Of a stretch of DNA of 64,000 bases, positions 36,010 through 41,763 are shown one piece after another; position 1 is the first letter of the stretch, and each line of letters starts with the position of its first letter. Both the position numbers and the translations under genes were made by a program. The DNA is taken from NCBI RefSeq assembly GCF_000522985.1, contig NZ_CP007128.1:3084220-3148219 (forward strand), in the 5' to 3' direction. The notes under the pieces were generated by a model. That model was not told the origin of the DNA, ran no database searches, and worked only from the letters and a program-made list of their open reading frames with translations. The DNA is from Gemmatirosa kalamazoonensis. GTDB taxonomy: Bacteria; Gemmatimonadota; Gemmatimonadetes; Gemmatimonadales; Gemmatimonadaceae.

Positions 36010-36815
36010 TACTTGGTGCCTAACTTCTTCGCTCGCAGGTACAGGTTCAGCGAGCCGAAGGAGAGCGACGATTTCATCTGCACCACGACGCGGTCCGCGT
36101 CGTCGGAGATCCACACCTCGGCGTGCCCGCCCTCGGAGAAGATCCCCTTCGTCTTGATCGTGGGCTGTACGACGATCGTGGGGAACTTGCCGGCCGGCAC
36201 CGAGATCGTGTCGCGGCGCAGCACGCGGATGCGCACCGGGTTGCGGTCGGGGCGGAAGTAGCGATTCAGCTCGTACACGTCGCCGGGACGCAGCGGGAGC
36301 GTGCGCACGAAGTACAGGAACGAGCCGTCGTCGAGCGGGTTGGGCACCGACTTCTGCTCGTCCTTGTCGTCGTTCTCGAGGAAGACCTGGCGCTCGGGAA
36401 ACAGCTCGATGCGCGTGTTGCGGAACTTGCGCCCCTCCTCCTGGTCCTTCACGAAGCGCAGGGAGTACAGCGTGCGCGTGTCGATCCAGCTCTGGAACAC
36501 GTCGTTCACGCTGTACACGATGGTGCCGCCGCGGACGTGGAAGATGGTGCGGTAGGTCTCGTGCCCGCGCACGTCCTCGAGCGAGGCGACCTGCATCGAC
36601 CCGTCGCCGACCTTGAGGGGCCCGAAGCGCACGTCGTAGATCAGCTCCTCACCGACGCCCCACGGCACCGGCGCGCGATCCGCGGCACGCGGCTGTGCGG
36701 CGTCGGCGGTCGCGGGCTGCAGCGCCTGCGGCGCGCGCGCGGGAGGCGTGGACGGCCCGTGCGAGCCAACCGCGACGCCGAACGCGACCAACGAGGAGAG
36801 CAGGCGTCCCGTCAC
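36009..36815 (-). CDS. DUF3108-domain exported protein
   Basis: A 268-residue protein with GTG start inside the GTGA overlap with the glycosyltransferase stop. It has a signal peptide (MTGRLLSSLVAFGVAVGSHG) and a Pro/Ala-rich segment to about residue 50. The DUF3108 beta-sandwich then runs from WGVGEELIYDVRFGPLKVGDGSMQV to the end, including RDTISVPAGKFPTIVVQPTIKTKGIFSEGG and AEVWISDDADRVVVQMKS. DUF3108 proteins are periplasmic with unknown function. Coupling to a glycosyltransferase hints at envelope glycan biogenesis. Confidence 0.85.
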   Translation of the reverse strand: MTGRLLSSLVAFGVAVGSHGPSTPPARAPQALQPATADAAQPRAADRAPVPWGVGEELIYDVRFGPLKVGDGSMQVASLEDVRGHETYRTIFHVRGGTIVYSVNDVFQSWIDTRTLYSLRFVKDQEEGRKFRNTRIELFPERQVFLENDDKDEQKSVPNPLDDGSFLYFVRTLPLRPGDVYELNRYFRPDRNPVRIRVLRRDTISVPAGKFPTIVVQPTIKTKGIFSEGGHAEVWISDDADRVVVQMKSSLSFGSLNLYLRAKKLGTK

Positions 36816-38395
36816 GGCGTCTCGGCGCTCGGCGCGGACGCGGGTGCATCGGGCGCGTCCGACCCGGCGGCGCCCCCATCGGCGCCGTCGCCCCCGGTGC
36901 GCGCCCCGCGCCGCCGGCCGCGCCGCGAGCGACGCGACCGGCGCGCGGGACGATCGCCGCCGTCGGCCGCGCCCTCGTCGGCACCGTCGGTGTCGCGCGG
37001 CGCGGCGTCGCGCGGCGGCGCGTCCTCGCCATCGTCGGCGGGCGTGTCGACAGGCGCGGCGGTCTCCGCGCCCTCGGCGGCGGCCGCGCCCGTCGAGCGC
37101 TTGCGCCGCGATCGGCGCCGGCGCGAGCGGGTCGGCGCGGCCTCGTCGCTCGGCGCGGTCTCGGGATCGCGGGCTTCCGGTGCCGGTCCGGCCTCGATCG
37201 GCGCGGCGTCGGCCGCGGGCGCCTCGGAGGCGGCCAGCGCGCCCTCCGCGCGCTCGCGGCCGGAGCCGCGACGCGACTTGCGGCGCTTGCGGGCCGGCGC
37301 GGCCGGCGAGGCCGGCGTGGCCGTCGACGCGGCGTCGGCCTCGCCGTCGGTCGTGAGAGCCGGCGGCTCGGCGCCGTCGCTCGGGCGCGGACGCTTCGGC
37401 CGCTCGCGCGCGGGGCGCTCGCGGGGGGGCCGCTCGCGGGGGGGCCGCTCGCGGGGGGCGACGCTATCGCGAGAGGCGTCGCCGCGCGGCGCGTCCGAGC
37501 TTCCCTCCCGTCGCGGGCGCTTGCGGCGGCGGGTCGTGTCCGCGTCCACGGGCGGCTCGGCGACGACGAGCTCGCGCTCCTCGCGCCGGCGGATGGCCGG
37601 CGCCTCGTCGGGCTCCGGGGCGACGGGCGGCCGGAGCGGCACCGGTGCGCCGACGCGCGCCGGCGCGGCGCCACGACGGCTCCGCCACCCGAAGCGGGCG
37701 AGCGACAGCGCGTCGGCGAGCGCGCGCACGCGGCTCACGCGCTGCCGCACGTCGTAGCGCGGCTCCACGGGCACGCTCTCGACGCGCCGGAAGTGCGGCG
37801 CGAGCGCGACGAGCAGCTCGGCGTTCGCGGCGGCACCCGGCTCGTTGACGAGGGCGCGATCTCCGCGCTCGCGCAGCGCGTCGCGCACGACGGAGATGCG
37901 GATCAGCCGGTACGCGCTCGTCGGATCGGCGACGCCGTCGACCCGCATGAACGGCCGCAGGATCCACGGCGCGACGCGCCGCAGGCGGCGCACGGGCGCG
38001 GGGTCGGACTCCCCGAAGCGCCGCTCGGTGACGACGACGTCGGCGCCGCCCTCGAAGCGCTTCACCAGCTCGGGAATGTGCTCCGGGCGGTCGGTGAAGT
38101 CGCCCTGCATCACGATCATCGCGTCGCGCCGCGGGTAACGCGTGTGCGCGGCCACGTAGCGCGCGAGCGCGTCGAGCGCGGCGCCGTAGCCCCGGCGCTG
38201 CACGCCCGCGAGCACGGTCAGCGGCAGGACGCGGGTGTACGGCTCGAGGACCTCGGCGGTCGCGTCGGTGCTGCCGTCGTCGTAGACGACCAGCTCGTAG
38301 TCACGCGCGAAGTCCTGGAGCGCTCCCCGGATCTTCCAGAGCAGCACGCCGATCGTCGGCGCCTCGTTGTGAACGGGGATGCAGATGTAGAGCAC
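36812..38395 (-). CDS. family 2 glycosyltransferase with a ~280-residue disordered Arg/Ala/Pro-rich tail
   Basis: Residues 1-215 are a dolichyl-phosphate-mannose-synthase-like GT2 domain: CIPVHNEAPTIGVLLWKI, VVYDDGSTDATAEVL, RRGYGAALDALARY, VMQGDFTDRPEHIPELVKRF (acidic metal site) and ADPTSAYRLIRISVVRD. No C-terminal membrane helices are seen. From about residue 245 the chain is low complexity: RERPPRERPPRERPARERP, then KRRKSRRGSGR and RSRRRRSRRKRS blocks between acidic/Ala segments, ending SAPSAETP. The tail is as long as the enzyme and may bind nucleic acid or polyphosphate. GTG start at 38395 with GAGG upstream. Coupled to DUF3108. Confidence 0.8.
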   Translation of the reverse strand: MLYICIPVHNEAPTIGVLLWKIRGALQDFARDYELVVYDDGSTDATAEVLEPYTRVLPLTVLAGVQRRGYGAALDALARYVAAHTRYPRRDAMIVMQGDFTDRPEHIPELVKRFEGGADVVVTERRFGESDPAPVRRLRRVAPWILRPFMRVDGVADPTSAYRLIRISVVRDALRERGDRALVNEPGAAANAELLVALAPHFRRVESVPVEPRYDVRQRVSRVRALADALSLARFGWRSRRGAAPARVGAPVPLRPPVAPEPDEAPAIRRREERELVVAEPPVDADTTRRRKRPRREGSSDAPRGDASRDSVAPRERPPRERPPRERPARERPKRPRPSDGAEPPALTTDGEADAASTATPASPAAPARKRRKSRRGSGRERAEGALAASEAPAADAAPIEAGPAPEARDPETAPSDEAAPTRSRRRRSRRKRSTGAAAAEGAETAAPVDTPADDGEDAPPRDAAPRDTDGADEGAADGGDRPARRSRRSRRGRRRGARTGGDGADGGAAGSDAPDAPASAPSAETP

Positions 38396-38475: not shown

Positions 38476-38502
38476 TTGGCACTCATCGGTCGAGAGTGCC
38501 AC
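38476..38502. promoter_or_regulatory. CIRCE element (HrcA operator)
   Basis: TTGGCACTC (38476-38484), nine bases, then GAGTGCCAC (38494-38502). This matches the CIRCE consensus TTAGCACTC-N9-GAGTGCTAA in arm sequence and in the exact nine-base spacing; only the outer base of the right arm breaks symmetry. CIRCE is bound by the heat-shock repressor HrcA. It lies 111 bases before the + gene at 38614 and 80 bases before the divergent glycosyltransferase. No chaperone gene is adjacent, so one or both neighbours may be HrcA-controlled. Confidence 0.75.
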
Positions 38503-38613
38503 CCAACTCCTTGGCGGCACATCACTTGTGTTGTGGCGATCGCGGCCGCATCGGCCGATACTAGCGGTGTATAGAGAGGCAGACGACGTCGATCTCTTAC
38601 GCGAGGGAGTCCG

Positions 38614-39436: not shown

Positions 39437-39997
39437 ATGTTCGAACAGCTCCGCGCGTCGCTGCGCAATCTGCTCGACAACGCCAGTCCCGCCGACCGAC
39501 GTGCCGCGCTCACGGATCTGAAGCAGGCGCTCGTGCACGCGCGCATGGGCGTGGACGATCTGCGCACCGGCGTCGCGAAGGCGCGCGAGCGGACGGCCGC
39601 CGCGCAGGAGGAGCTGGAGACGATCCGACGGCGCAAGCGGCTCGCCGAGCAGATCGGCGACGCGGAGACGGTGGCGGTCGCGGACCGGTTCGAGAAGCTG
39701 CAGGCGGAGCGCGTGGACGTGCTCACGCGCAAGCAGGACGCGCAGGAGCGCGAGCTGGCGCTGGCCGAGCACGAGGTGGCGGAGATGAGCGCCGACTTCC
39801 GGCGCGCGGTCGCCGGCGTGGGGAGCGGGGGCCCGGTCGGGGGCGGCGACCCCGAGCGCGCCGCCGCGGCGGAGGTGGACGCGCTGCTCGGCGACGACGA
39901 CGCGTCCGACCGCGAGCGGCGAGCGGCCACCCGCGCGCAGCGCGACGCGGACGCGGACGCGCGGCTGGCGGAGCTGAAGCGCCGCATGGGGAAGTGA
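39437..39997 (+). CDS. coiled-coil protein, weakly PspA/IM30-like
   Basis: A 186-residue protein from ATG 39437 (MFEQLRASLRNLLDNASPAD). It is nearly all alpha-helix with a long heptad-patterned stretch (about 25-130: VDDLRTGVAKARERTAAAQE, LETIRRRKRLAEQIGD and AQERELALAEHEVAEMSADF). An Ala/Gly linker and a short C-terminal helix (ADARLAELKRRMGK) follow. The pattern recalls phage-shock-protein-A proteins, but I cannot be sure of homology. The stop overlaps the next gene by GTGA, so it is coupled to an outer-membrane protein. It may belong to an envelope-stress unit with the CIRCE-preceded gene upstream. Confidence 0.65.
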   Translation: MFEQLRASLRNLLDNASPADRRAALTDLKQALVHARMGVDDLRTGVAKARERTAAAQEELETIRRRKRLAEQIGDAETVAVADRFEKLQAERVDVLTRKQDAQERELALAEHEVAEMSADFRRAVAGVGSGGPVGGGDPERAAAAEVDALLGDDDASDRERRAATRAQRDADADARLAELKRRMGK

Positions 39998-41763
39998 TCC
40001 GGCGGGCCGTCGGTGTGGCGGCCGGTCTCGCGTGTGTGGCGGCAGCCCAGCGGATCGACGCGCAGCCACGAGGTGGCGGACCACCGGGCGCACGCACGCC
40101 GTCGCGCATGCCGGTGCGGTGCGCGGGACAGCGCGTGACCGACGTCGTGGTGCTCACGCAGCCGCCGTACACGAACTCGCTCATCGGCCGCGTGGCGTTC
40201 GTCGAGCGCACCGTGCGCAAGCTGCACGCGACGACGCGGCCCGAGCTGGTCGACCGCTTCCTGCTGCTGCACCCGGGCGATCGGTGCGACGAGCTGCGGC
40301 GCGCGGAGAGCGAGCGCATCCTGCGCGCGCAGCCCTACCTCGTGGACGCGCGCGTCACGTCGTTCGACGATGGACACGGCGGCGTGCGCCTCGAGGTGGA
40401 GACGCGCGACGAGTTCTCGGCGATCGTCGACGCGGCGGCGCGCGCCGAGATGCCGATCGTGACGCATCTGCGCGTGGGCGAGGCGAACCTCGCGGGCAGC
40501 GGGTTGTACGCGTCGGCGGACTGGAAGGACGGCGGCACCGGCTACCGCGACGGCTTCGGCGGCCGCCTGACGAACTACCAGTTCCTCGGGCGGCCGTTCC
40601 AGCTCACGGTGCAGGGCGCGCGCGAGGGGGTGGGGGACAACTGGTGGGGCGACCTCACGCACCCGTTCTACACCGACCTGCAGCGCATCGCCTGGCGCGC
40701 GTCGGTCGGTGGACGCAACGACTTCATCGAGCTGGTGCGGCCGCGCGACGACGACAACGCGCTGTTCTACCGGCGCGCCTACGCGTCGTTAGGCGCCGTG
40801 CTGCGCATCGGCGCGCCGGGGCGACTGAGCCTGTTCGGCGGCTCGCTGTCGACCGAGCGCGCGGAGACGGAGGACCGCGTTGCGGTGCTGAGCGACAGCG
40901 GCGAGGTGCCCGACCTCGGCGAGCCGCTCGGCTTCTCGCCGGCGGAGCACTACAAGCGGCAGCACGCGGTGCGCCTGAACTCCCTGTGGGGGATCCGCAA
41001 CGTGCGCTTCCTCGGCGCGACGGGCTTCGACGCGCTCACCGGCCGCCAGGACGTGCGTCGCGGCTTCCAGCTCAGCACCGTGGTCGGACGCGGGCTCGCC
41101 GCGCTCGGCTCGCGCGACGACGACGTCTTCACGTCGGTGGACATGTACGCGGGGCTCGGCACGGCGCGCGCGTTCGCCGCCGGCGAGGTGCGCGCCGAGG
41201 GCCGCCACGACTACGACACGGGCCGGTGGGACGGCATCGTGGTGAGCGGACGCGCCGCGTGGTACCTCGTGCCCGACGCGTGGTGGCGCACGCAGGCCAG
41301 CGTGGAGGTGGGCGCCGCACGCGCGCCGCGCGTCCCGTTCCAGCTCACGCTCGGCGCGCTGGACGGCGGCGTACGCGGCTTCCGCGCCGCGAGCGCGGCG
41401 GGCGCCGCGCGCGCCGTGGCGCGGCTCGAGCAGCGCCGCGTGCTCGGCACGCCGTTAGGCCTCGGCGACATGGGCGTCGCGGCGTTCGCGGACGTCGGCC
41501 GCACGCTCGCCGGCTCGGCGCCCTACGGCGTGGACTCGGGCACGCAGGCATCGGTCGGCGTCGGCGTGTTAGGCGCGTTCCCACCGCGCTCGCGCCGCCT
41601 GTGGCGCATCGACCTCGCGTTCCCCGTGACGCACAGCCCGGGCGCGAAGTTCGACGTGATCGTCTCCAATCGCGACCTCACGCGGCTGTTCTGGCGCGAG
41701 CCGCGAGACATTCAACGCGCACGCGAGCAGGCCGTGCCCGCGTCGGTCTTCACTTGGCCGTGA
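39994..41763 (+). CDS. outer-membrane beta-barrel protein with one POTRA-like domain (BamA/TamA-like)
   Basis: A 589-residue protein from the GTG in the GTGA overlap. Signal peptide VIRRAVGVAAGLACVAAAQR. Residues about 40-150 resemble a POTRA domain (VDRFLLLHPGDRCDELRRAE, RILRAQPYLVDARVTSFDDG, VRLEVETRDEFSAIVDA). The remainder is a 16-stranded-type barrel with alternating aromatic residues (GTGYRDGFGGRLTNYQFLGR, YRRAYASLGAVLRIGAPGRL). The C-terminal strand ends near LWRIDLAFPVTH with an extra 45-residue tail. Family members insert or secrete envelope proteins or lipids. A single POTRA domain argues against it being BamA itself. Three TTA codons are all inside GTTAGGC. Confidence 0.7.
   Translation: MIRRAVGVAAGLACVAAAQRIDAQPRGGGPPGARTPSRMPVRCAGQRVTDVVVLTQPPYTNSLIGRVAFVERTVRKLHATTRPELVDRFLLLHPGDRCDELRRAESERILRAQPYLVDARVTSFDDGHGGVRLEVETRDEFSAIVDAAARAEMPIVTHLRVGEANLAGSGLYASADWKDGGTGYRDGFGGRLTNYQFLGRPFQLTVQGAREGVGDNWWGDLTHPFYTDLQRIAWRASVGGRNDFIELVRPRDDDNALFYRRAYASLGAVLRIGAPGRLSLFGGSLSTERAETEDRVAVLSDSGEVPDLGEPLGFSPAEHYKRQHAVRLNSLWGIRNVRFLGATGFDALTGRQDVRRGFQLSTVVGRGLAALGSRDDDVFTSVDMYAGLGTARAFAAGEVRAEGRHDYDTGRWDGIVVSGRAAWYLVPDAWWRTQASVEVGAARAPRVPFQLTLGALDGGVRGFRAASAAGAARAVARLEQRRVLGTPLGLGDMGVAAFADVGRTLAGSAPYGVDSGTQASVGVGVLGAFPPRSRRLWRIDLAFPVTHSPGAKFDVIVSNRDLTRLFWREPRDIQRAREQAVPASVFTWP

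Follow-up and report, generated by a model that had tools for sequence, protein, structure and literature searches.

Genes around the inverted repeat

The window, a stretch of 64,000 nucleotides from the genome of Gemmatirosa kalamazoonensis, carries at positions 38476-38502 an inverted repeat whose complete sequence is TTGGCACTC-ATCGGTCGA-GAGTGCCAC. We predict this repeat (TTGGCACTC-N9-GAGTGCCAC, no strand assigned) to be a CIRCE operator, the binding site of HrcA. CIRCE normally controls bacterial chaperone genes, and HrcA regulons usually comprise a few chaperone operons (groESL, hrcA-grpE-dnaKJ). The repeat sits between the start of a leftward glycosyltransferase gene (38395) and that of a rightward gene encoding a 243-residue protein, hereafter P243 (38614), at 80 bp from the former and 111 bp from the start codon of the latter. 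Compared with the consensus TTAGCACTC-N9-GAGTGCTAA, the arms show three mismatches in 18 positions, the spacer has the consensus length, no mismatch falls in the inner core GCACTC-N9-GAGTGC, and eight of the nine arm pairs are complementary. The sequence quoted in the original prediction was found at these positions exactly as given. Its claim of exact arms and spacing stands for the spacing of 9 bp and for the 6 + 6 core, whereas the arms agree with the consensus at only 15 of 18 positions.

The neighbouring genes are also those that had been named. On the minus strand, positions 36812-38395 encode a GT2-family glycosyltransferase (PF00535, E = 9.3e-20) of 527 residues, in which the Pfam match stops at residue 171 and a long Arg/Pro/Ala-rich tail with RERPP repeats is present. 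On the plus strand, P243 (38614-39345) belongs to an uncharacterised Gemmatimonadota family and is the conserved neighbour of the site and its inferred target. It is followed on the same strand by a coiled-coil protein (39437-39997, the start being taken at the ATG at 39437) and by a probable outer-membrane beta-barrel protein (approximately 40072-41763), named as a barrel by eye and conserved downstream. Searches of Pfam and NCBIfam with the barrel reading frame gave no match. The coiled-coil protein, a conserved neighbour that is not reliably co-transcribed with P243, has no Pfam family above the cut-off, only weak scattered matches, and no match in the PDB. By eye it looked PspA-like, an assignment that we rejected as no PspA family was among its matches.

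CIRCE and hrcA in the genome and in the class

The source genome (7.48 Mb, four contigs) contains a single hrcA gene (Pfam E = 3.9e-49), and by eye dnaJ comes next on that strand. A second similarity of the hrcA product, to the HrcA DNA-binding domain, scores just below the Pfam cut-off. Across the 7.48 Mb, the bare core GCACTC-N9-GAGTGC occurs in two places only, the site at 38476-38502 and a position 44 bp before groES. The search for hrcA and for other CIRCE sites that had been proposed as a check of the original prediction thus returned a single hrcA gene and, as the sole other core match, the groES operator.

We then extended this search to 246 genomes of the class. The hrcA gene is present in 229 of them, and CIRCE was found with at most two mismatches in 219, mostly once per genome. 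It occurs in 214 of the 229 genomes with hrcA versus 5 of the 17 without (Fisher test, P = 1e-9, the genomes being treated as independent with kinship uncorrected). Moreover, 30 loci were retrieved from this class-wide scan, and groES adjoins CIRCE in 27 of them. Since the pattern lies beside groES and tracks hrcA, it has the distribution of an HrcA operator in the class, with groESL as its standard target. For the delta-proteobacteria, groESL is described as the only constant HrcA target (PMC545781).

Some genomes depart from this general picture. One genome (G148, 93% complete) has CIRCE at both P243 and groES but no hrcA match. In one family (f10), all eight sampled genomes (G040, G043, G049, G055, G073, G088, G106, and G131) are without hrcA and CIRCE, and P243 is found in seven of them. 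Two genomes (G084 and G102) carry a tandem pair of CIRCE sites before groES (L247:1914-2020 and L158:155-239). One genome that lacks P243 has a CIRCE matching the TTR...YAA form at every position (L244:1458-1484, i.e. G039:C1:217457-217483), 173 bp before a putative type I restriction-modification gene, hsdM, named by eye from its translation.

Conservation of the site upstream of P243 homologues

About 126 P243 matches were listed in the class, of which 110 loci were fetched for a scan of the upstream regions, five more being added later and 11 left out. From the 110 loci, 107 could be oriented; the remaining three (L057, L060, and L062) were left out because their regions were too short within the gene. 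In this first set, 10 of the 107 oriented homologues had a site with at most three mismatches in the 450 bp preceding P243. Nine of these come from the 32 homologues of the window's own family, and the tenth, from the 75 homologues elsewhere, precedes a relative with 30% identity. By comparison, none of 230,813 control positions in the same loci matched, even at up to four mismatches. A further set, of 80 named loci from genomes partly overlapping those of the first, yielded the site in 18 loci, against none of 688,659 control positions at up to three mismatches. One of these 18 sites (L240, three mismatches, at -357) was discounted as off position and is absent from the tree described below. 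The site is thus conserved upstream of P243 orthologues, in a minority of the homologues and far above the controls.

To build a tree, 30 loci from the class-wide P243 search and 61 of the 80 named loci were combined, leaving 74 distinct homologues after the removal of identical rows. A CIRCE-like site (at most three mismatches) precedes 20 of these 74, distributed across many clades, and starts 126-207 bp upstream of the P243 start codon. The presence of the site requires at least 9 changes on the tree, versus 17.7 with shuffled labels. This distribution indicates that the site is scattered over the family, through repeated losses or gains. No clear site precedes the other 54 homologues, so P243 does not generally require CIRCE. 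Three loci scored as negative look decayed or variant, namely L205 and L010 (four mismatches each) and L168 (five mismatches, with matching changes in both arms).

The closest comparison is with the sister locus L008. Between the two loci, the arms are identical at nine of nine and eight of nine positions, versus one of nine in the spacer and 16 of 60 and 24 of 90 in the flanks. To judge from this alignment, the site is a clean footprint in surroundings that look random. When 23 sites are compared pairwise, identity averages 0.77-0.79 for the arms, against 0.35 for the spacer and 0.28-0.30 for the flanks; the value for the arms is partly circular because the sites were picked by their arms.

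A further group of sites precedes distant relatives of P243. In three genomes of one genus (G004, G048, and G213; family f2), CIRCE is found 157-190 bp before a relative with 28-30% identity to P243. The same near-perfect sites (L241:4567-4593, L242:4399-4425, and L243:4078-4104) lie 26 bp before the gene for elongation factor P, on the other strand. Three other f2 relatives of that branch have neither CIRCE nor efp in the fetched stretches. Elongation factor P may be an HrcA target in this genus, and since CIRCE may serve efp there, these sites were not counted as proof for P243.

Which neighbour is the target

The main alternative for the target is that the site controls the divergent glycosyltransferase gene, which the original prediction had also considered, or both genes from the sequence between them. 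By position alone the glycosyltransferase would be preferred, being the nearer of the two genes in the window (80 bp versus 111 bp), and it is also the adjacent divergent gene in L164, L179, L183, L196, and L208. However, 12 loci of the named set carry an M28 peptidase gene, on the strand of P243, between the glycosyltransferase gene and P243 (this assignment was checked against Pfam in one other locus, L248). In 11 of these 12 loci, the site is beside P243 and the glycosyltransferase gene starts at least 1.8 kb before P243. As the site stays with P243 when the two genes are separated, we consider control of the glycosyltransferase quite unlikely, and the gene is probably not the target.

The arrangement downstream of P243 varies as well. 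In L163, P243 and the coiled-coil gene are separated by a convergent Peptidase_C26 gene, and similar minus-strand reading frames follow P243 in L166, L169, and L183 (by eye). With such a gene in between, co-transcription of P243 with the two genes for the coiled-coil protein and the barrel is hard to envisage in these loci, which argues against an operon of the three genes. On this comparison of gene orders, P243 itself is the conserved partner of the site, and in some genomes the response would be limited to it and would not extend to the coiled-coil or barrel genes.

Position of the site relative to a putative promoter

A scan for the sigma-70 consensus upstream of P243 found no promoter. 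Between CIRCE and the P243 start (38503-38613 in the window, and the equivalent regions in L161-L216), a recurrent motif, TCGTCRC / CGATACT, was observed about 20-60 bp downstream of CIRCE. This motif was derived from the CIRCE-positive set. It is also found in 15 of the 54 CIRCE-negative homologues, versus 1.6 expected from shuffles, one of the 15 being L205, which was in the training set. The motif may represent an unusual promoter element, and the GATACT that it contains (38557-38562, plus strand) is a tentative -10 element of the P243 promoter.

If the motif is part of a promoter, CIRCE lies upstream of that promoter. If GATACT is the -10 box, CIRCE would be centred about 80 bp upstream of the transcription start, which would be unusual for HrcA. 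From the end of CIRCE to the start codon, the distance is 111 bp at P243 versus 44 bp at groES in the same genome. For the delta-proteobacteria, HrcA sites are tabulated at -45 to -99 (PMC545781), and Campylobacter HrcA sites are reported to overlap the transcription start (PMC7464140).

This position leaves some room for another regulator that recognises the repeat, or for HrcA acting in a non-classical way, for instance from upstream. The possible core promoter lies downstream of the site and, in L170, L172, and L173, a terminator-like hairpin ends close before CIRCE (by eye), so that little room is left there for a promoter further upstream. However, the promoter assignment is only putative. 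Moreover, the same consensus marks groES in 27 of 30 loci and follows the presence of hrcA in the class, which makes HrcA the simplest binder. Another regulator, or another mode of action, appears distinctly improbable to us, and classical control of P243 by HrcA is retained in what follows.

Chance occurrence of the pattern

In shuffled versions of the window, 0.00 matches are expected at up to three mismatches. The whole genome searched with the reversed pattern is a harsher control than these shuffles. At up to three mismatches, the reversed pattern gave five matches per strand in this genome versus three for the real one, the third real match (C2:5028155) being taken as chance. For the TTR...YAA form at up to two mismatches, the control and the real pattern gave two matches each, and for the bare core one and two, respectively. 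Across the class, GGCACTC-N9-GAGTGCC matched in 14 of the 246 genomes, against 15 control matches counted. Whole-genome counting was therefore dropped as proof of the site. With the reversed pattern matching at a frequency similar to that of the real one, a single site in this genome is not clearly beyond chance, and the comparison between genomes had to decide. The control counts would allow the palindrome to be a functionless chance match in this genome, but we hold this to be very improbable, since similar placement before a homologous gene in other genera, with random spacer and flanks, is not expected by chance. Judged by its conservation upstream of homologous genes, the inverted repeat at 38476-38502 is a genuine CIRCE operator.

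The P243 protein

Homologues of P243 were found in 123 of the 246 genomes of the class. In a phylum-wide search, the protein was detected in 29 of 61 genomes and in none of the six genomes outside the class. P243 itself had no match in Pfam, NCBIfam, PHROG, or the PDB sequences. When 51 relatives were compared with Pfam, no family was matched by more than two of them (best E = 0.0033), and the family profile gave a single chance-level match in the PDB (E = 0.98). As for known chaperone and heat-shock families, P243 shows no sequence match to a curated family or a solved structure.

An AlphaFold model based on an alignment of 51 sequences is all-helical (mean pLDDT 90.7, pTM 0.88), and Foldseek returned no match for it at an E-value of 0.001 or better. 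With VIA-align, the best hit (Z = 6.0) was to helical repeats and covered residues 103-243 of P243 only. At Z = 4-6, the hits, again restricted to the C-terminal part, include TPR proteins, BamD, and 14-3-3, scores that the tool's own note describes as middling for helical proteins. Invariant residues of the family include L146-W147, G150, F152-P153-D154, D112-D113, R133, and H140. By eye, no obvious signal peptide or membrane segment is present and the protein is probably soluble. The role in envelope maintenance that had been suggested for the locus found no support. One can also imagine that P243 assists GroEL/GroES in Gemmatimonadota as a lineage-specific partner, be it a holdase, a co-chaperone, or an adaptor. 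Sharing the HrcA titration circuit with the chaperonin would then ensure its synthesis each time GroEL is overloaded; we regard this as conceivable, if unlikely.

P243 as a candidate member of the HrcA regulon

Taking these results together, we consider it likely that P243 belongs to the HrcA/CIRCE regulon as a lineage-specific member, repressed by HrcA and induced with groESL under stress. The idea of a new regulon member without a known chaperone role, put forward in the original prediction, is supported by the presence of hrcA, the operator at groES, and the conservation of the site upstream of P243. HrcA binding, repression, and stress induction are what we infer from the known HrcA/CIRCE system. 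In the titration model of that system, overload of GroEL releases repression (PMC6032397). Applied to P243, HrcA from the single hrcA gene would bind the site and limit P243 transcription in unstressed cells. Under heat or another stress, GroEL would become loaded with unfolded protein and HrcA would lose activity, and P243 would then be induced together with groESL. Read from the genomes, this arrangement suggests that P243 is part of the heat-shock response in these bacteria.

The locus resembles the classic HrcA/CIRCE regulon in its consensus core and 9-bp spacing, in a genome that also contains hrcA and an operator at groES. It differs in its non-chaperone target, in three arm changes, and in the distance to the start codon (111 bp, instead of 44 bp at groES). 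CIRCE before lineage-specific genes is already known from Waddlia and, as candidates, from Chlamydia. In Waddlia, CIRCE lies between the divergent genes wcw_0502 and wcw_0503, where HrcA occupancy was reported by ChIP-qPCR (PMC12038028). As described there, that site shares with ours its place between divergent genes, its conservation in the lineage, and its position before a lineage-specific gene. However, it belongs to another phylum and to an unrelated type III secretion effector gene, and the proof is experimental in Waddlia, whereas our evidence comes from sequence comparison. In Chlamydia trachomatis, 13 genes with a revised CIRCE motif are reported as upregulated on heat shock (PMC8762339). 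These candidates likewise widen the HrcA regulon beyond chaperones by motif search, with a looser motif (TAGCA-N15-TGCTAA) and transcript data, whereas here the motif is near-consensus and the evidence comparative.

A limited literature search turned up no study of regulation by HrcA or CIRCE in Gemmatimonadota. These bacteria form an abundant, little-studied soil phylum. A conserved additional HrcA target, from an uncharacterised family present in half of the class genomes (123 of 246), suggests that the stress response of Gemmatimonadota has a component not recognised before.
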